Part shown: in pieces, positions 22,085 through 31,492 of the stretch | Numbering within the stretch: the stretch's first letter is position 1 | How the letters are laid out: the number at the start of each line of letters is the position of its first letter | Source of the DNA: Candidatus Kapaibacterium sp. | GTDB taxonomy: Bacteria; Bacteroidota; Ignavibacteria; Kapaibacteriales; UBA2268 | Direction: 5' to 3' | Assembly: GCA_026390675.1 (NCBI GenBank) | Contig: JAPLFM010000175.1 | Coordinates: 1-42,998 of the forward strand | DNA: 42,998 nucleotides | The notes under the pieces: model-generated | Told to the model about the DNA's origin: nothing | The model's input: the letters and a program-made list of their open reading frames with translations, nothing else | The model's database searches: none | Program-made: the position numbers and the translations under genes

Positions 22085-23597
22085 TGCAGCATACACCACT
22101 AAACTTACCACCTTTCTTAATACCGCCACTTCTTCTTGGTCTAGAATCGCCCTCTGGCTTTTCGAATTTTTTAGCTCTACTCTCTCTATCAGATGAGTCC
22201 CATCTCTTTTTCTTATCATCAGATCCAGAAGCAGTCCTATCTGTACCGGGAGTATATTCCCTCTTAGGTCCATCTACTCTTGTCGAAGAGTAAATTCTCT
22301 TTGGTCTGTCTTCACTACTACGTGGAGTATATTCTCGCTTTGGTCTATCTTCACTACTGCGTGGTGTATATTCTCGCTTTGGTCTATCTTCACTACTGCG
22401 TGATGAATATTCTCGCTTAGGTCTATCTTCACTACTGCGTGATGAATATTCTCGCTTAGGTCTATCTTCACTACTGCGTGATGAATATTCTCGCTTAGGT
22501 CTATCTTCACTACTGCGTGGTGTATATTCTCGCTTAGGTCTATCTTCACTACTGCGTGGTGTATATTCTCGCTTAGGTCTGTCTTCACTACTAGAACTAT
22601 AAGCTCTTTTTGGTCTTTCACCATCACCTATACTTTCTCTTCTTGGAGGTCTATCTCCAGCGTCCATATCTCCATCAGGTCTTGGTGGTCTTTCTTCTCT
22701 ACCAAATCCTCTAAATCTATCTTTCTTAAAATCGCCTTCTTTTCTTTTTTTGTCTTTTCCGCCTCTATATCCAAACTCTTTATCATCATTGTCATCAATA
22801 GTTCTAGTAGGTTTAAATTTATTTCTATCTTCTCTAAATGGAACCACAGCAACTGGTACATTATTCTCTCTACCTTCAAAACAAATCACAACCTCAGCAC
22901 GCACCGATAATGTTTCAAATTTCTTCTTTAGTTCTTCAAAAGTACCATAATGATGTGTTTCAAATAGTGTTGTCAAATTCATACCAATATAAGCTCTACG
23001 TTCTGGCATTACTTCGCAAGCTGCATCAAGAAATGGGCGAAGTCTGTAAGGAGTTTCCAAAAGTACAACTGTATGTGGCTGTCTTTCCAATGCTTTTAAT
23101 GCTTCTATTCTTAGCTCAGTTTTTTGAGATACAAATCCTGCATAATAGAATTTGTCAATTGGCAAACCGCTACGTACTAAGGCAGCCATAATTGATGTTA
23201 CTCCGGGAGCAACTTCAATTTCAATTCCAGCAGCAAGTGCTGCACTTACCAAATTTGCACCCGGATCTGCAAATACAGGAGTTCCACAATCAGAAATCAA
23301 TCCAATTCTAGTTCCTTCTTTCATCTTTTTTATATATTCAGCTACACGTTGGGTTTCATTTTGTTCATTTAGATTATCTAAATCTTTGCGTATATTATGT
23401 GTTTTTAATAGCTGTGCCCCAACTCTAAACTCTTCACAAACAATTAAGTCCGATAATTTTAGTAGTCTTATTGCTCTTTGAGTAATATCTTCTTCGTTTC
23501 CAATTGGGGTAGATATAATATAAAGTTTACCAACTTTTGGCTCTTCTATTTCTATCTTTTTACGCATAGAAAGATCTTCATTTTCAAATTTTCTCAT
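22077..23597 (-). CDS. rsmI: 16S rRNA (cytidine-2'-O)-methyltransferase RsmI with a long Arg/Asp/Ser-rich repetitive C-terminal extension
   Basis: GKLYIISTPIGNEEDITQRAIRLL, LISDCGTPVFADPGANLVSAALAAGIEIEVAPGVTSIMAAL are RsmI signatures; the ~260-aa extension carries SSEDRPKREYTPR repeats. Confidence 0.9.
   Translation of the reverse strand: MRKFENEDLSMRKKIEIEEPKVGKLYIISTPIGNEEDITQRAIRLLKLSDLIVCEEFRVGAQLLKTHNIRKDLDNLNEQNETQRVAEYIKKMKEGTRIGLISDCGTPVFADPGANLVSAALAAGIEIEVAPGVTSIMAALVRSGLPIDKFYYAGFVSQKTELRIEALKALERQPHTVVLLETPYRLRPFLDAACEVMPERRAYIGMNLTTLFETHHYGTFEELKKKFETLSVRAEVVICFEGRENNVPVAVVPFREDRNKFKPTRTIDDNDDKEFGYRGGKDKKRKEGDFKKDRFRGFGREERPPRPDGDMDAGDRPPRRESIGDGERPKRAYSSSSEDRPKREYTPRSSEDRPKREYTPRSSEDRPKREYSSRSSEDRPKREYSSRSSEDRPKREYSSRSSEDRPKREYTPRSSEDRPKREYTPRSSEDRPKRIYSSTRVDGPKREYTPGTDRTASGSDDKKKRWDSSDRESRAKKFEKPEGDSRPRRSGGIKKGGKFSGVCCNG
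22305..22600 (-). repeat. 39-bp in-frame tandem repeat inside rsmI (13-aa unit SSEDRPKREY[TP/SS]R, ~8 copies)
   Basis: Direct reading of DNA units tcttcactactgcgtg(g/a)tg(t/a)atattctcgctt(a/t)ggtcta. Confidence 0.9.
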
Positions 23598-23991
23598 TTA
23601 TTCTTATAGATTTGTTAAAATAATTTTTACAAACATACCTATAAATGCCCTATTTTCATAGTAACATTATGATATTAAAGAAAATAGATTGTAAATAGCA
23701 GAATTAAACTTAAGTATATAACTTTGATATGCAGATAATTTTATATAAATACTCATATTATCATCTTCATCAAACAAAAAAATAGGCACTTTTTTAGACA
23801 GCATTCAATTCAAAGTTCCGTAGGAACGACCAGATTGTAGTAAATAAAACAAATATTATATTATTAATTCCCTAGATGTAACATTGGAGCTCCTTTGGTG
23901 CTTAAAAGAAATTAATTTGCTACAAATATTGAACTCCTTTGGAGTTCTAAAAGAATATAAAATAAAATTAGATAAAAAGTGATTTGTAATA

Positions 23992-24546
23992 TTACTCATT
24001 TACAATACACGAATTAGGTATCATATAACCTTCTACAATTTGGTTATTTGTAAAAAACCAAAGGCGTCCTTCAGCAGAATCAATTCTACTATGGCTACCA
24101 AAAGCAATTGTAAACTTATCACTTTGCGAATGTGGTAAATACCAGTATCCATAGCCCCAATTATATCCTATTTTTTTGTCTCTCTCTCTTTCTATTGAGT
24201 CACACGTTGGTTTGTGGAACATTTACCATAAGTCAATTTGATAAATTTTGTTGATCTTAATTTTACTTCGCTCTAAATTATCATATAATTTGTTTTTATA
24301 GTACATTATATAAATTGTATCTTTAAACTGATTGATAGCCTGAATACTCTCATAGCAATATTCATTTGAAGTATCTTCTAATACTTGTGAATTCCCTAAA
24401 AGTATTATATTTGTGTCAATAACTCTAATTTTCATTTTATAAATATTATCATTTGGCTTAATCAAATTTTGATTTGAGTTTAATTCAAATGAAACTAAAA
24501 ACAAAATAATATATAATATGCAATTAATTTTCACTTTTTTATCCAA
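23992..24546 (-). pseudogene. hypothetical secreted protein split by an in-frame TAA (ORFs 24223-24546 and 23992-24222 are in the same frame)
   Basis: ...KINKIYQIDLW-TAA-MFHKPTCDSIERERDKKIGYNWGYGYWYLP; the second ORF starts at the codon right after the stop, in the same frame. Confidence 0.45.
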
Positions 24547-24648
24547 TACTTTTATAAATTTAGATAATGATTGATTGTAAATAAATTAGCAAAATTAATA
24601 AAACCTAAACTTACTTAGGAGCTTTACCTACTTTAGAGCATTACCGAA

Positions 24649-25152
24649 TTAATTATTTTTTTTACGACGAACAGGTTTTATAATTTCCATTTTGCAATAA
24701 TAAACTTCTTTTACAGTACACATTAAATCTTCTCTTATACAATTTTTTTGAAGTTCAATGTTAGCTGCAGTATTTGGGTAAATTATTGTTTTGTATCGTT
24801 CATCCCAATTGAATGGAGTTAACTTTACCTTACTCCCAGCTTTAATTTGACCTTTAAAGTTAGCATCAACAAAACCTAAAGTATCATTTTCATTTGTAAT
24901 AGCAATTAAAAAACTTGACCAAAAAACCATATCATAATGCAAAACAGGTGCAAACATTAATACTTTAGCTTCTTTCTCTTCTAATAAGTCTTTGTAAACC
25001 CATTGTTTCTTACACTCAGATGCAATTGATGATTTTATCTTTGCATTATGCTTGCTCTTATGTTTGCTTTGTTGTACGTCAGGCTTTGTCTCAGCAAAGC
25101 ATGCAATTACAAATAAGAAAGAAAGTATTGTATTTAAAGCTTTATTTTTCAT
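24649..25152 (-). CDS. hypothetical secreted/lipoprotein-like protein
   Basis: MKNKALNTILSFLFVIACFAETKPD (signal/lipobox-like), 167 aa, 6 bp after the upstream ORF. Confidence 0.55.
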   Translation of the reverse strand: MKNKALNTILSFLFVIACFAETKPDVQQSKHKSKHNAKIKSSIASECKKQWVYKDLLEEKEAKVLMFAPVLHYDMVFWSSFLIAITNENDTLGFVDANFKGQIKAGSKVKLTPFNWDERYKTIIYPNTAANIELQKNCIREDLMCTVKEVYYCKMEIIKPVRRKKNN

Positions 25153-25158
25153 AACTAT

Positions 25159-25380
25159 CTACTTTTTATCTACAGGTTTGTGAGATTCTTTATCTGGATA
25201 TCCTTCATATAAATGATAATCTTTTTTATCTTTATCCTTAACGATTAAATTGCGAAGAAATTCAATATTTACATCTTTGATTGAAGTAACTTTAATTTTT
25301 GGTTCCGTTCTAAGATTTATAACTGATGTAGGATCAAAATAATATTGTCTTTTGTCCATTATACGGAAGGAATTTTTCAT
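25159..25380 (-). CDS. orphan ORF with short Rhs-core-like N-terminus
   Basis: NSFRIMDKRQYYFD resembles KNFFRILDKKQYELKD of the Rhs-core ORF at 28462-29643; remainder unrelated. Confidence 0.45.
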   Translation of the reverse strand: MKNSFRIMDKRQYYFDPTSVINLRTEPKIKVTSIKDVNIEFLRNLIVKDKDKKDYHLYEGYPDKESHKPVDKK

Positions 25381-25381
25381 A

Positions 25382-25612
25382 TTGGTTACTCCCTCCCCGA
25401 TTTTAACTTGTTAAAATCTTTGGTGGAGGGTTGGGGTGGGGTTCTTAGCGTATTTCCAGCTAAGAAAAACACATCTAATAATATATTTGTTTTAGTTTTC
25501 ATTTATAACTTAAATTCAATTTCATTCTTGCAATTTAACAACTTTTTGTGGTAAAACAGCATTTTTTTTAAGAACCCACCTCATTCCTGCCCCAAGGGGA
25601 GGAAGTAACCAA
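25382..25612. mobile_element. ~231-bp MITE-like element, copy 1
   Basis: Terminal inverted repeats TTGGTTACTCCCTCCCC / GGGGAGGAAGTAACCAA; internal palindrome GATTTTAAC-tt-GTTAAAATC and inner inverted repeat GGTGGGGTTCTTA / TAAGAACCCACC. Confidence 0.7.
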
Positions 25613-25690
25613 CTTCTGAGTTAAGTTTATTCAATATAATAATTTATTTCGTTTTTCGTGTAATTGTAAAAAGAAAATAGTAAAAATAAA

Positions 25691-26167
25691 TTGAATAAAC
25701 AAAAAGTATATATAGAGACTAGTGTAATAAGCTATTTGACTTCAAGACCAAGTAGAGATATAATAGTTTCAAGCCACCAACAAATTACAAACCAATGGTG
25801 GAAGAAGTCTAAAAGTAAATTTAATAATTATATCTCAGAATTTGTAATTGATGAAATATCAAAAGGAGATAAATCTGCTTCAGAAATTAGACTTGCTTCA
25901 GTAAAAAATATTCAATTGCTTGAATATGATGATGATATTGTTGAAATTGCAATTAATTATGCTAATTTATTATCAATTCCAGAAAAAGCTAGACTTGATG
26001 CATTTCATTTAGCTATTTCTGTATATTATGAAATAGACTTTTTACTTTCTTGGAATTGCAAACATATTGCAAATGCTGTGGTTATGAGTAAATTAAGAGA
26101 TTATAATAAAACTAAAAATTTATTTACACCGATATTATGTACACCATTAGAATTATTAGAGGTTTAA
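25691..26167 (+). CDS. PIN-domain protein (probable toxin-like nuclease), TTG start
   Basis: KVYIETSVISYLTSRPSRD ... ARLDAFHLAISVYYEIDFLLSWNCKHIANA = PIN acidic motifs. Confidence 0.85.
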   Translation: MNKQKVYIETSVISYLTSRPSRDIIVSSHQQITNQWWKKSKSKFNNYISEFVIDEISKGDKSASEIRLASVKNIQLLEYDDDIVEIAINYANLLSIPEKARLDAFHLAISVYYEIDFLLSWNCKHIANAVVMSKLRDYNKTKNLFTPILCTPLELLEV

Positions 26168-26168
26168 T

Positions 26169-26321
26169 ATGTTCAAAGATAAAATAGTAGATGAAGTTAG
26201 GAAAAATCGTGAAAAGATTTTTGCAGATTTTGATTATGATATGAAAAAATATTCCAAATATATTATTGAAATGCAAAAAAATGAGACTAGACATTTGGTA
26301 AATAAAGATTCAATTACTTAA
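26169..26321 (+). CDS. small partner protein of the PIN gene (50 aa, not in the supplied ORF track)
   Basis: MFKDKIVDEVRKNREKIFADFDYDMKKYSKYIIEMQKNETRHLVNKDSIT*, starts 1 nt after the PIN stop codon. Confidence 0.7.
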   Translation: MFKDKIVDEVRKNREKIFADFDYDMKKYSKYIIEMQKNETRHLVNKDSIT

Positions 26322-26440
26322 ATACTATAATCACACACACTTTTCTCATCTACTACAAAGCTATTACCACTTGGTGTCTTCATATCTCCTATAGCTACAC
26401 GCACACTTCCTAAGTGGTCTTTAAGATTGTCCCAAACTGC
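26318..26440 (-). pseudogene. Rhs core fragment
   Basis: Reverse strand reads WDNLKDHLGSVRVAIGDMKTPSGNSFVVDEKSVCDYSI*, matching LKDHLGNVRVAIGDMK...FVVDEKAVNDYY of the ORF at 28462-29643. Confidence 0.8.
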
Positions 26441-26523
26441 TTTCGGCACTTCGGGAGCCCTTTCTTATTGTTTTTGTCAATACCATTTGAAAATGTATTA
26501 AGGAGTATTTAAAGAAAATAAGA

Positions 26524-26750
26524 TCAAATAACTTTGTTGAAATCATCTATACTTATATCTGCTTGTTCTAATATAACTTTTAATGTTATTTTTTTTATAG
26601 GATTATGAACTGGAATTGTAATTTTATAAGTTTTATTTATACTAAGTTTATGTAGTCTAATGTGGCTTACTTTTGTCTAACTACCACAAAACCAAGTCTT
26701 TGAAGCCCATTAATGACTTCTTTATATGATAATAATGGAATTGGAGTCAT
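26524..26750 (-). pseudogene. hicA: HicA-family toxin gene with apparent 1-nt frameshift
   Basis: Frame 1 MTPIPLLSYKEVINGLQRLGFVVVRQK then stop; shifted frame continues SHIRLHKLSINKTYKITIPVHNPIKKITLKVILEQADISIDDFNKVI*. Start overlaps the hicB stop (ATGA). Confidence 0.8.
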
Positions 26751-26950
26751 ATTGAAATTTCATCATAAATTCTATTATTTATTTGAATCATTTCATCTTC
26801 AATCGGCTCAAGGTATAGTTCTATTGCTTCCTTTATGTTTAAAAGAGCTTCATCTCTTGAGTCACCTTGACTTATACACCCCTGCAAAGAAGGAACATAA
26901 ACCACGAAACCACCCTCTTCAGCTTTTTCTAAAACTACTTTAATATTCAT
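26747..26950 (-). CDS. hicB: HicB-family antitoxin
   Basis: MNIKVVLEKAEEGGFVVYVPSLQGCISQGDSRDEALLNIKEAIELYLE, the HicB pseudo-RNase H fold signature. Confidence 0.92.
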   Translation of the reverse strand: MNIKVVLEKAEEGGFVVYVPSLQGCISQGDSRDEALLNIKEAIELYLEPIEDEMIQINNRIYDEISI

Positions 26951-27080
26951 TTTTAATCTCTAATTATTTTATTTGAAGTCGTTTCATTTTAAATATTATT
27001 TTACTTGACTTAGTTCAAACAACTTCAGAAGACAAATTGCTCTTACAATTTTCCAAGGGGAGGAAGTAACCAACTTCTGA

Positions 27081-27133
27081 AAATCTTCCTTGTTGTTCAT
27101 TACCGTATATATGCCATTCATAGAGTTTGGGCA
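27081..27133 (-). pseudogene. Rhs core fragment
   Basis: Reverse strand MPKLYEWHIYGNEQQGRFS matches PKLSEWHIYGNEQQGRFT of the Rhs ORF. Confidence 0.75.
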
Positions 27134-27231
27134 TTTTGGAAATGTTTGCTATATTTGAGTTAGGTTTATTCAATATAATAATTTATTTCGTTTTTCGTGT
27201 ATTTGTAAAATATCAAAATCACAGAAATTAA

Positions 27232-27840
27232 ATGCAAGAAAAAACACTAACTTATGAGCAATTAATCAATCTTTTTAGTGAATTAAGAGATTCTCAAGCT
27301 AAAACTGATGCTCAATTAAAAGAATCACAAGCTAAAACTGATGCTCAATTAGCCAAAACTGATGCTCAATTAGCTGAAACGAATAGATATATCAAAGAAT
27401 TAGGAATTCAAATAGGTGGAGTAAATAGAAGTTTTGGAAAATTTACTGAAGAATTATTTATGAGCTCACTTGAAATAATGATGAAATCAAACTTTGGTAT
27501 TCAATCATTTGATCCAAATCCTTCACGTAAGTTAGAATCTGATAGTATTGAAATAGATGCTATGGGAATTATTAATGGCAGTATTAACAAAGTTTATATT
27601 GCTGAAATTAAATCTACTTATAGCAAAAAAGCAGTAAAGCAGTTAAGTAAAATAATGGCTAAATTCAACTCTTTTTATCCAGAATTAAGTGATAAAAAGA
27701 AATTTGGAATTATTGCTGTACCATTTTTGAAAGAAGAACAAATAAAAGAAATTTCAAATGCAGGATTTTATCCAGCTGTTTTCAAAAATGAAATGTTAGT
27801 TATTCAATCTCCTGATAATTTCAAAGCAAAAGCTTTTTAA
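27232..27840 (+). CDS. PD-(D/E)XK nuclease-like protein (DUF3782-like), paralog 1
   Basis: Coiled-coil N-terminus with AKTDAQL repeats; IEIDAMGIINGSINKVYIAEIKS fits the D...ExK motif. Confidence 0.75.
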   Translation: MQEKTLTYEQLINLFSELRDSQAKTDAQLKESQAKTDAQLAKTDAQLAETNRYIKELGIQIGGVNRSFGKFTEELFMSSLEIMMKSNFGIQSFDPNPSRKLESDSIEIDAMGIINGSINKVYIAEIKSTYSKKAVKQLSKIMAKFNSFYPELSDKKKFGIIAVPFLKEEQIKEISNAGFYPAVFKNEMLVIQSPDNFKAKAF

Positions 27841-27908
27841 TTACTAATTGATTTCAAAGAACTTATACATATTTCAATCTTCTAAACTTACTCAGGAGCA
27901 TTACCCAA

Positions 27909-28427
27909 TTACCACATACTAAATGTAGTTTTATCGCCAATATTATACTCTGGGAAATTAATTTTTAATATTTCAATTAATTCAAGCGAATTTTTATGAA
28001 TATACAATACTTCATTATCATGACCAACTTGAATTTCTATTAAAATAAATCCGCCTGCTAAATTCACAATGTTTAACTTTCTATATTTCCATTTATTCAT
28101 TTTAAGTTCTTTTTGAAAATATTTTGTATATCTAAACCCTTTTATATTGAGTAATCCTTCTGAATTCAAAGAAACATGTGTTAAAGTATATCTATCTAAT
28201 TTGAAATATCTTAATTCCAATAATATAAATAGAAATTCAAAAATCATAAAAACAATAAAGAATGAAATATTTGTAGTTAAAATTAAAAACACATTAATGC
28301 AGGTATAAATAATGAAACCATTGAAAATAATAAATATTAAAATATTTATAGTAAAATATAGTTTTATAAAAAAATTATATTTCTTTTTCTCATAATAATA
28401 TAAGTTTTGATTGTAGGAATCTTCCAT
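27909..28427 (-). CDS. membrane protein downstream of Rhs tip; candidate immunity protein
   Basis: 172 aa, two or more strongly hydrophobic segments; 34 bp after the Rhs-core ORF, same strand. Confidence 0.55.
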   Translation of the reverse strand: MEDSYNQNLYYYEKKKYNFFIKLYFTINILIFIIFNGFIIYTCINVFLILTTNISFFIVFMIFEFLFILLELRYFKLDRYTLTHVSLNSEGLLNIKGFRYTKYFQKELKMNKWKYRKLNIVNLAGGFILIEIQVGHDNEVLYIHKNSLELIEILKINFPEYNIGDKTTFSMW

Positions 28428-28461
28428 ATTAAATAAAATTTTGTGAACAAATACTTTTACA

Positions 28462-29643
28462 TTATTTTTTAGGTTTAACTTTTGGTATTAATGGTATCTC
28501 AATAGAATTTTTAGTTTCATTCACATTATTTATAGCACTTATTGTACTATTAACTTTTTGTAACATTAATGGAGCTTCTCTAATTTCTTTAATATCTTTT
28601 CTTAAATTTAATATATTCCCTATAATTTCGCCAATATTCCCAGCATTTTCAGTACCAAATTTTTCATCAATTTTATTTCCAATTGTTCTTCCAATCAATG
28701 GTGCGATACTAGTAGGAGAAGCAGGTTGGTTACGATTTATTGCATTTTGTGATGTTGAAAACAAATTATATACAAAGTCAATTGCCAAAATTGTAGTAGC
28801 AACTGGAGTTGCAACCGTTGCAGTAGCAACAATTGCAGTAAAAGTAATTGGAGCTGTAATACTTAATAATATTAAATCATTTCCTCGAGATTGTTGGTCT
28901 TTAAAATATTCTCCTGGTTTGCCTGGTATATCAAATAGACTACTATATGGTTTTCCTTTATACTCATACGAATTTACATCTGAATTTGGACCAAGATATT
29001 TGTGGTCGTCATAAATAGGTCTATAACCATTAGGACCACTAAAACATTTTGGATGTTCTACAACCTGAAAAGTCCCATTTGATTGTTCTTCAACTTTCCA
29101 CATAAAGACTGTATGTTTTGATTTACCATCTTTATCAATAGAATTTATCGGACTATCACCTGCATACACATAAGAACTCTGAAATGCAAACTTATCTTTC
29201 AATTTATCAGGTGTAGGGAATCTTATTATTCTTGGATCAAATACTCTTTCACCAAAGTCCAAGCTATTACCAGTTCCTTTCAGCTCATTATCATTTTCTT
29301 TACCATTATATCCATACCTACTACTTCCACTGCTCCAGCTTCTGTCACATATAAGCATGCCATAAGGGTAATAGTCGTTTACTGCTTTCTCATCCACAAC
29401 AAAAGGTGCTACCCCTCTCACAGCAGTAGGTATCTTCATATCTCCTATAGCTACTCTTACATTGCCTAAATGGTCTTTTAGTTCATATTGTTTTTTATCA
29501 AGTATTCTAAAGAAATTCTTATTTGTTACATCACTTGTCAAAACATCAAGGTAATACAAAGGTTCTGCATCTGGCTTTCTTACTGTAAATCTTCCTTGTT
29601 GTTCATTTCCGTATATGTGCCATTCAGATAGTTTTGGTTTCAT
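28462..29643 (-). CDS. truncated Rhs repeat-associated core protein with variable C-terminal tip
   Basis: YELKDHLGNVRVAIGDMK, YYPYGMLICDRSWSSGSSRYGYNGKENDNELKGTGNSLDFGERVFDPRIIRFPTPDKL ... SPINSIDKDGK = Rhs core; N-terminus truncated at the TIR element. Confidence 0.85.
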   Translation of the reverse strand: MKPKLSEWHIYGNEQQGRFTVRKPDAEPLYYLDVLTSDVTNKNFFRILDKKQYELKDHLGNVRVAIGDMKIPTAVRGVAPFVVDEKAVNDYYPYGMLICDRSWSSGSSRYGYNGKENDNELKGTGNSLDFGERVFDPRIIRFPTPDKLKDKFAFQSSYVYAGDSPINSIDKDGKSKHTVFMWKVEEQSNGTFQVVEHPKCFSGPNGYRPIYDDHKYLGPNSDVNSYEYKGKPYSSLFDIPGKPGEYFKDQQSRGNDLILLSITAPITFTAIVATATVATPVATTILAIDFVYNLFSTSQNAINRNQPASPTSIAPLIGRTIGNKIDEKFGTENAGNIGEIIGNILNLRKDIKEIREAPLMLQKVNSTISAINNVNETKNSIEIPLIPKVKPKK

Positions 29644-29644
29644 A

Positions 29645-29876
29645 TTGGCTTCTCCCTCCCCGATTTTAACTTGTTAAAATCTTTGGCGGAGGGCTGGGGT
29701 GGGGTTCTTAGCATATTACCAACTAAGCTAATCACTTCCAATAATATTTTATTTTTAACTTTCATTTATAACTTAAATTCAATTTCATTTGTTGCAATTT
29801 AACAACTTTTTGTGTAAAATCAGCATTTTTTTAAGAACCCCACCTCATTCCTGCCCCAAGGGGAGGAAGTAACCAA
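29645..29876. mobile_element. ~232-bp MITE-like element, copy 2
   Basis: Same layout as copy 1 (TTGGCTTCTCCCTCCCC ... GGGGAGGAAGTAACCAA; gattttaacttgttaaaatc; ggggtggggttctta ... ttaagaaccccacc). Confidence 0.7.
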
Positions 29877-29954
29877 CTTCTGAAATAAATTGCCATTATA
29901 ATAATTTATTTCGTTTTTCGTGTATTTGTAAAATAACAAAATCACAGAAATTAA

Positions 29955-30509
29955 ATGCAAGAAAAAACATTAACTTATGAGCAATTGATAAATCTTTTTC
30001 AAGAAGATAGAAAACAATTTCAAGAAATTAAAGAAGCTCAATTAAAAACTGATAAACAAATCAAAGAGCTAGGTATTCAAATCGGAGGTTTAGGTAATAG
30101 GTTTGGTCAATTTACTGAAGATTTGTTTTACAATTCTCTCTCTAAAATTATGAAAGAGAAATTTGGAGTTCAATTTTTTGAACCAAATAGATCGAGAGAA
30201 AAAGGTGATGCTTCAATAGAAATTGATGCCATGGGCATTGTTAATGGTAGTATAAATGCTGTATATTTAACTGAAATTAAATCAAAATATAACAAAAAAG
30301 CAATTGAACAACTTACTGTAATAATTAAAAAGTTTGATTCATTTTATCCAGAATTAAGTGATAAAAAGAAATTTGGAATAATTGCTGTGCCTCACTTAAA
30401 TGAAAATCAAGCTAATGAAATACTTAAGGCTGGTTTTTACCCAGCAACATTAAAAAATGATTTGGTTGTGATAGATACTCCTAAAAATTTCAAACCTAAA
30501 GAGTTTTAG
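29955..30509 (+). CDS. PD-(D/E)XK nuclease-like protein (DUF3782-like), paralog 2
   Basis: Near-identical start MQEKTLTYEQLINLF; IEIDAMGIVNGSINAVYLTEIKS; PELSDKKKFGIIAVP as in paralog 1. Confidence 0.75.
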   Translation: MQEKTLTYEQLINLFQEDRKQFQEIKEAQLKTDKQIKELGIQIGGLGNRFGQFTEDLFYNSLSKIMKEKFGVQFFEPNRSREKGDASIEIDAMGIVNGSINAVYLTEIKSKYNKKAIEQLTVIIKKFDSFYPELSDKKKFGIIAVPHLNENQANEILKAGFYPATLKNDLVVIDTPKNFKPKEF

Positions 30510-30790
30510 TAATTTTATTTAAATGAACTAAATCCAAATAATTATACATTTTAAAGAACTCGATGCAGATGATTTGGAGATCAAAAAGAAGCTTAAAAAA
30601 AATCGACGTAATTTGACAAAAAACGCACTTTGGAAAACTTATTTGGAAAATTTTTCCAAATTTTCTAAATGTACTCACATATACTCTAATTCCTTTTGAA
30701 AATATTTGTGATTCTAAAATCAATTTACCTCAGATCACTCTTTGGCATAAATCTTGTAAACTATATGATAAATTTACAAATTAAAAGTCA

Positions 30791-31492
30791 ATGAACGGTA
30801 AACAATTACTTACAATAATATTACTTGCATCTTTATCAATTACATTGATATTTAGTATGCTTGCTGGTATTTATAAATATAAACCAGACTGGTTAGGTTA
30901 TCCACCATTGCCTGGTGATACTGTAAAAGTGGTTAAAAAAGACACTGTCTATTTAGAGCCAACTGTACAAATTACTGAGAAGAGATTGGCTGAATTAAAT
31001 AGAGATGTTGCACAAAAACAGATTTTTCAAACTGAAAAAGATTCGCTTTATGCAAAAAACAAAAGAATAGTTGATTCCCTTAATATTTACAAGAACAAAA
31101 TTGCATTTTATTTAGATTCAATCTCAAGAGTTCAAAAAGTTTTAGGCAACACCAAAGGATTTGGAAACAATTTGCAAGACTCTATAAAAAAACTTGTTTC
31201 TAAATTTAAAGACGCTCAAGATAAGTTAAAGATAGCTGAACAAAGAGCAAGTGATCAAGAAAAGTTTATTTCAACTAAACAAGATACACTTGAGAAAAAA
31301 AGTTTTCAAGATTTTGCAAAGATATATAATAACGCTAATCCAAAAGATGTAGCGAAGATATTAGAACAATTAGATGAAAGAGATGCCGCTCACATTTTGA
31401 AGTTGATGTCAAAGAAAAAAGCTGGCAAGATTATTGAAAGTATGAAACCACAGAAGGCTGCTGCAATTCTTTTGCTAGGCGATTCTGAATAA
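30791..31492 (+). CDS. MotE/MgtE-N-domain flagellar-associated protein
   Basis: TM segment, coiled coil, then IYNNANPKDVAKILEQLDERDAAHILKLMSKKKAGKIIESMKPQKAAAIL. Confidence 0.75.
   Translation: MNGKQLLTIILLASLSITLIFSMLAGIYKYKPDWLGYPPLPGDTVKVVKKDTVYLEPTVQITEKRLAELNRDVAQKQIFQTEKDSLYAKNKRIVDSLNIYKNKIAFYLDSISRVQKVLGNTKGFGNNLQDSIKKLVSKFKDAQDKLKIAEQRASDQEKFISTKQDTLEKKSFQDFAKIYNNANPKDVAKILEQLDERDAAHILKLMSKKKAGKIIESMKPQKAAAILLLGDSE

Follow-up and report, generated by a model that had tools for sequence, protein, structure and literature searches.

Orphan Rhs tips, DUF3782 nuclease-like genes and dispersed repeats interleaved in a probable recombination mosaic beside a split flagellar gene cluster

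Results

The island described here covers approximately 23.8-30.7 kb of a 42,998-nt window (the whole stretch of DNA analyzed) from contig C72 of a Candidatus Kapaibacterium draft genome (3.66 Mb, 330 contigs, 94% complete). The window also encodes flagellar genes and type IX secretion system (T9SS)-type tails, features that would fit a member of the Bacteroidota. On the minus strand, the island carries an Rhs core-plus-tip gene, a membrane-like open reading frame (ORF), Rhs-core fragments, hicB with a frameshifted hicA, and ORFs without an assigned family, while a PIN-like gene and two DUF3782 genes are located on the plus strand. The Rhs-core fragments, the DUF3782 genes, a repeat resembling repetitive extragenic palindromic (REP) elements and a leader sequence all have further copies elsewhere in the genome.

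Several truncated Rhs cores were identified in this single locus (26327-26428, 27075-27134 and 28462-29643). The longest of these (28462-29643, minus strand), which an initial annotation of the DNA had described as a truncated core with a tip, was confirmed by a match to TIGR03696 (E = 3e-11) and joins a core fragment to a unique C-terminal tip (an orphan tip); other copies of its core in the genome are 64-85% identical. Three additional core fragments had been proposed, of which those at 26327-26428 (minus strand; E = 1.2e-6, 74%) and 27075-27134 (minus strand; a cassette start, KMPKLYEWHIYGNEQQGR, with core similarity) were recovered, whereas the third, at the start of the ORF at 25159-25380 (minus strand), is weak, with only the first 15 or so residues (KNFFRILDKKQY) resembling an Rhs core (tblastn E = 0.66). 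DNA homologous to the fragment at 26327-26428 is present in L023, L025, L027 and L030, and the element-to-Rhs-codon junction with which the ORF at 25159-25380 begins was also found in L025 at 4659. The cores recur with differing frames beyond them, and several tips have an in-frame ATG near the core start. An alignment of nine copies at the WHIYGNEQQGR codons gave a mean pairwise identity of 92-93% over the first 30 nt inside, dropping to about 30% from 45 nt outwards; the sequence upstream is unlike between copies and homology begins near one codon. A search with PF05593 gave no match, but was equally silent in an E. coli control.

Next to the orphan tip is a membrane-protein-like ORF of 172 aa (27909-28427, minus strand), whose position and hydrophobicity make it a candidate immunity gene; neither the tip nor this ORF matched a family in the Pfam and NCBIfam scans. 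An ORF with a signal-peptide-like start and no assigned family (24649-25152, minus strand) is a possible second immunity gene, by position only. Another Rhs-core gene, with a PIN-like gene nearby, is located near the other end of this contig (L157:16666-17553 and C72:59385-59564).

The two paralogous nuclease-like genes of the initial annotation were both assigned to DUF3782. Gene 2 (29955-30509, plus strand) scored 38.2 bits (E = 1.6e-9), above the Pfam cut-off of 24.4 bits, and gene 1 (27232-27840, plus strand) scored 18.2 bits, below it. The residues D91, E107 and K109 are invariant in the DUF3782 alignment, in which a coiled coil is combined with a PD-(D/E)XK fold. An AlphaFold model (predicted local distance difference test, pLDDT, 81) retrieved EndoMS-type endonucleases as the top Foldseek matches (E = 6e-5), followed by Card1/Can2 nucleases, with modest template-modeling (TM) scores (0.36). 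The DUF3782 genes are predicted to encode nucleases with a PD-(D/E)XK fold. About 15 copies are present in the genome, with reading frames open throughout; a scan of a contig database with the DUF3782 alignment gave a single distant locus.

The bodies of these genes form the groups gene 1/C112/C265, C223/C60b/C40 and C51/C100, with gene 2 loosely joined to C211/C107, and between-group identity is 61-74%, which is low given that AT-rich genes were aligned globally. A different grouping is seen in the first 48 nt: the C40 body is 94% identical to C60b and 63% to gene 1, while its 5' end is 94% identical to gene 1 and 65% to C60b. Because the 5' ends and the bodies group differently, the genes are mosaics in which alike 5' ends are placed on different nuclease bodies, which is direct evidence for recombination within the family. 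A "post" repeat directly behind gene 1 (27841-27908), with copies in L023, L024, L028 (two), L030 and L031, follows some DUF3782 copies only and also stands between Rhs tips.

An element of approximately 245 bp with inverted ends and hairpins is present in two copies in the island that are 90% identical, at 25375-25621 (ends GGTTACTCCCTCCCC / GGGGAGGAAGTAACC) and 29638-29885, and a 30-bp remnant of its right end (27053-27082) is 100% identical to 29856-29885. Its left 71 nt folds as a hairpin (z = -3.8) and has further copies of 94-97% identity next to ordinary genes on contigs C233, C237, C153, C49 and C229. Being dispersed, palindromic and arranged as an inverted pair, the element fits a REP-doublet repeat. 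Typical REP doublets forming hairpins (REPINs) are shorter than 245 bp. Genes for Y1_Tnp transposases of the REP-associated tyrosine transposase (RAYT) type exist in the genome; no copy of the element was found directly flanking one of them, only a diverged repeat about 1.6 kb from one such gene. The initial annotation placed a terminal inverted repeat or leader at each junction; both do recur (the element twice, the leader three times), but the element is not at every junction. Nor can the repeats be attributed to one local duplication, as a genome search puts copies on more than 20 contigs.

The outer edge of the element reads GGGGAGGG...AATATGAA(A/G) and was seen in the window at 25380 and 29643, and at L025:4659, L024:12181 and L036:9588 and 9981. 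An ATG at this edge is in frame with Rhs codons at three Rhs fragments (the one at 25380 being weakly Rhs-like). That the edge (GGGGAGGGAG-n8-ATGAAA) supplies a ribosome-binding-like site and a start codon to orphan Rhs fragments is not established, because MKPKLSEW also begins cassettes without the element. A second interspersed repeat (30572-30662) ends in a TTTGGAAAA/TTTTCCAAA hairpin and is present more than 20 times in the genome, including in L053, L046, L044 and L162, sometimes iterated at a spacing of 200-300 bp and near REP-like elements. Near-identical gene starts (METSFQNRITEKQSYET...) of an unassigned family were observed at L024:12673, L025:5105 and L028:4497, beside REP-like, Rhs or IS3-like genes.

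The leader occurs three times in the island: its promoter part alone before the PIN gene (25625-25671, plus strand; 98% identical to 27164-27210), and as the leader and promoter of DUF3782 gene 1 (27163-27231, plus strand) and gene 2 (29894-29954, plus strand). A genome search with the 69-nt leader identified 15 strong sites (E = 6e-30 to 8e-10; next match E = 0.01), with DUF3782 genes downstream of 13, the PIN gene downstream of one and a BrnT gene (Pfam E = 4e-25) downstream of another. The earlier observation that the same junctions lie beside different cargo therefore holds genome-wide. It had been taken to suggest a cassette-exchange platform. In a dedicated platform of this kind, the leader and the REP-like element would be the recognized joints for toxin, toxin-antitoxin (TA) and nuclease cassettes, and such joints do adjoin DUF3782, PIN and BrnT genes and differing tips. 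However, as 13 of the 15 leaders precede DUF3782 genes, the sequence would seem to be mainly a DUF3782 promoter region rather than a generic joint. Related motifs precede DUF3782 genes in other genera, in which AATAAT and CGTT/GTGTT show enrichment in the interval 30-60 bases ahead of the start (for AATAAT 9 of 22 versus 2.6 in shuffles, and for CGTT/GTGTT 7 of 22 versus 0.9, counts that are suggestive only since the motifs were chosen after viewing the sequences). The BrnT copy retains the first codons of a DUF3782-like gene (ATGCAAGAAA), suggesting that a DUF3782 gene has decayed there, and the PIN and BrnT genes may both have taken over leftover DUF3782 promoters. In addition, the REP-like element is also found beside non-Rhs genes, and no recombinase-like gene was seen among the island ORFs (ORF list, Pfam and NCBIfam), nor was an attachment site defined. 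We therefore consider an exchange platform unlikely.

At nine of the 15 leader sites, an Rhs core or start fragment is found no more than 260 bp away, always in divergent orientation, as compared to about 0.2 sites expected; for a random site, the chance of an Rhs fragment within 700 bp is roughly 1%. A short spacer between the Rhs start and the leader is common to gene 1, C265, C257, C51 and C60, and the junction recurs with different tips; the spacer-sharing junctions probably descend from one copied ancestor. These data bear on whether the island is nothing but random debris in a permissive gap, the recurrence being due to the large size of the DUF3782, Rhs and REP families. The broken hicA, the Rhs fragments and the high copy numbers would agree with pure decay, but the single orientation at nine leaders, the shared spacer and the DUF3782 frames that are open throughout make it very unlikely.

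We also compared the island to the 30 nearest genomes, none of which belongs to the same genus as the source. Arrays of short Rhs frames are common across the family, and one of 54 DUF3782 matches in its other genomes was near an Rhs core (G009:C77, inside an orphan Rhs array), a count that rests on the Rhs cores among the matches listed, so that pairs may amount to at least 1 of 54. A conserved DUF3782-Rhs partnership was rejected on this count outside the source genome. The comparison also bears on whether the DUF3782 genes are selfish, mobile nuclease genes whose insertion close to the start of Rhs cassettes drives the copying of adjacent tips, as with free-standing homing endonucleases. 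The PD-(D/E)XK fold, the copy number and the fixed divergent position beside Rhs starts at nine sites speak for such mobility, but the pairing is nearly absent in relatives that are rich in DUF3782 copies, at least two leader sites (on C100 and C107) have no adjacent Rhs trace, and no Rhs match at those on C40 and C223 passed the search. Moreover, the copies share no sharp right boundary, the post segment being found behind some only. Selfish mobility is thus improbable.

The island is flanked on the right by a MotE-like (MgtE_N) flagellar gene (30791-31492, plus strand), the first gene of a run that also includes fliK- and flgD-like genes. In all 28 relatives with readable upstream DNA, the end of fliJ is no more than about 70 bp from the MotE-like gene (27 by profile and L125 by reading the ORFs, its fliJ starting with TTG; L141 was left out since its upstream sequence is too short). 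Here, the island is located upstream instead of fliJ, a separation that is unique among the genomes compared. The fliI and fliJ genes are on contig C233 (fliJ at L156:3058-3501). Three genes come directly after fliJ (L156:3660-7559): one for a restriction enzyme of the TdeIII type, one that is AIPR/AbiU-like and one for a DNA methyltransferase. The flagellar cluster is thus split, and accessory genes border the cut on each contig. The split is seen in two independent contigs and the copies of the nearby interspersed repeat are mostly at most about 92% identical to each other, which makes a simple mis-join less likely. A rearrangement by recombination at shared tracts would be consistent with this arrangement.

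The remaining cargo consists of TA-like genes and small ORFs. The PIN-domain-like toxin gene (25691-26167, plus strand) matched Pfam PIN below the cut-off (E = 0.008), and the partner assigned to it in the initial annotation, a 50-aa ORF right behind it (26169-26321, plus strand), has no family and is a possible antitoxin by position only. In the proposed HicBA pair, the hicB antitoxin gene (26747-26950, minus strand) was verified (Pfam HicB_lk_antitox E = 1e-10), but the hicA-like gene (26535-26752, minus strand) is broken by a frameshift or stop, with its halves in two different frames. Two small ORFs at the left end of the island had no NCBIfam match (24223-24546, minus strand) or no Pfam match (23992-24222).

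Discussion

We consider it probable that the locus is an Rhs orphan-tip island of a known kind that has been reshuffled by homologous recombination among paralogous islands and that lies at a chromosomal breakpoint. Under this interpretation, displaced core-plus-tip fragments, probably with immunity genes, would remain after repeated recombination, and these would have become interleaved with promoter-carrying DUF3782 genes, TA genes and dispersed REP-like repeats. One ancestral Rhs-start/leader junction, with the DUF3782 gene facing away from the tip, may have been copied to several islands and later altered. Homologous recombination at the Rhs core start, the leader with the first codons, the post segment and the REP-like element would then swap the flanking sequence, so that the same junctions recur with different cargo because of recombination at shared tracts. 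We infer that recombination between islands caused both the mosaics and the chromosomal rearrangement. The tips are probably mostly silent unless recombined into a carrier gene. Every component belongs to a known kind, and it is the way in which they are joined that is unusual: to our knowledge, there is no earlier description of the divergent joint between an Rhs start and a DUF3782 gene, of DUF3782 genes with shuffled bodies or of such an island where a flagellar cluster is broken, DUF3782 being mentioned in only two papers of the literature searched.

Several points weigh against this interpretation. No full-length Rhs carrier gene was found in the genome, the longest core-bearing frame being 516 aa, and the tips are taken to be orphans because the frames are short and no carrier was recovered. 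A shell query from a relative gave a weak match to contig C211 alone. Contigs C58 and C163 begin inside Rhs cores, leaving room for an unassembled carrier; the assembly breaks at the repeats, and many copies of the shared tracts lie at contig ends. Toxicity of the tips and immunity of their neighbors are possible, candidate roles. A wrong join at either flagellar breakpoint is possible in a draft of 330 contigs, and the other breakpoint bears a restriction-modification locus and no Rhs island, and therefore the split did not come about by simple exchange between a pair of Rhs islands. Finally, the comparison was confined to other genera, and live exchange of cargo was unseen.

Orphan rhs modules and their recombination into carriers have been documented (PMC3967940, PMC3482391). 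The orphan rhs-CT/rhsI modules of Salmonella and other bacteria likewise consist of short core pieces and unique tips in arrays, and in both systems the shared core is the homology for recombination (PMC3967940). Unlike these modules, the island has no recovered carrier, DUF3782, TA and REP-like sequences are interspersed among its tips, and several tips have an in-frame ATG. Standalone cassettes of polymorphic toxin loci share the constant 5' part, the exchangeable 3' tip and the adjacent candidate immunity genes (PMC3482391), whereas in the island a second family, DUF3782, also has a constant 5' part and an exchangeable body. The combination of an N-terminal coiled coil with a PD-(D/E)XK domain agrees with the described DUF3782 endonuclease family (PMC4786415), but here gene 1 scores below the Pfam cut-off and the family is multiplied and paired with Rhs fragments. 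As for REP and REPIN sequences (PMC3116915, PMC2817692), the repeats are short, dispersed hairpins in inverted pairs in a genome with Y1_Tnp genes, in contrast to which no copy was found directly flanking such a gene.

One uncultured lineage shows how short repeats, orphan toxin tips and a nuclease-like family of many copies recombine as linked tracts, and it is suggested that such islands may mark the point where an otherwise constant order of flagellar genes is broken. A more far-reaching version, in which the DUF3782 nucleases, encoded with a promoter of their own, would cleave DNA at the start of Rhs cassettes or close to it and so induce gene conversion between islands, with their own bodies shuffled in the same manner, is possible, but we give it little credence. 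If a nuclease does drive the exchange of tips, it would represent a missing engine for the diversification of polymorphic toxins. Ordinary homologous recombination accounts for the data as they stand.

Additional Observations

An Rfam search of 23600-30900 gave no structured-RNA match. A role in anti-phage defense for the DUF3782, PIN and HicB genes was considered and rejected, as PADLOC gave no match. To the left of the island, a 39-bp tandem repeat (22246-22631) encodes an SSEDRPKREY repeat in the C-terminal tail of a methyltransferase-like gene. Tandem repeats with a 7-bp unit (AACTCAT/AATTCAT) are located at 1433-1560 and 918-1059 of the window, with inverted counterparts about 500 bp away.

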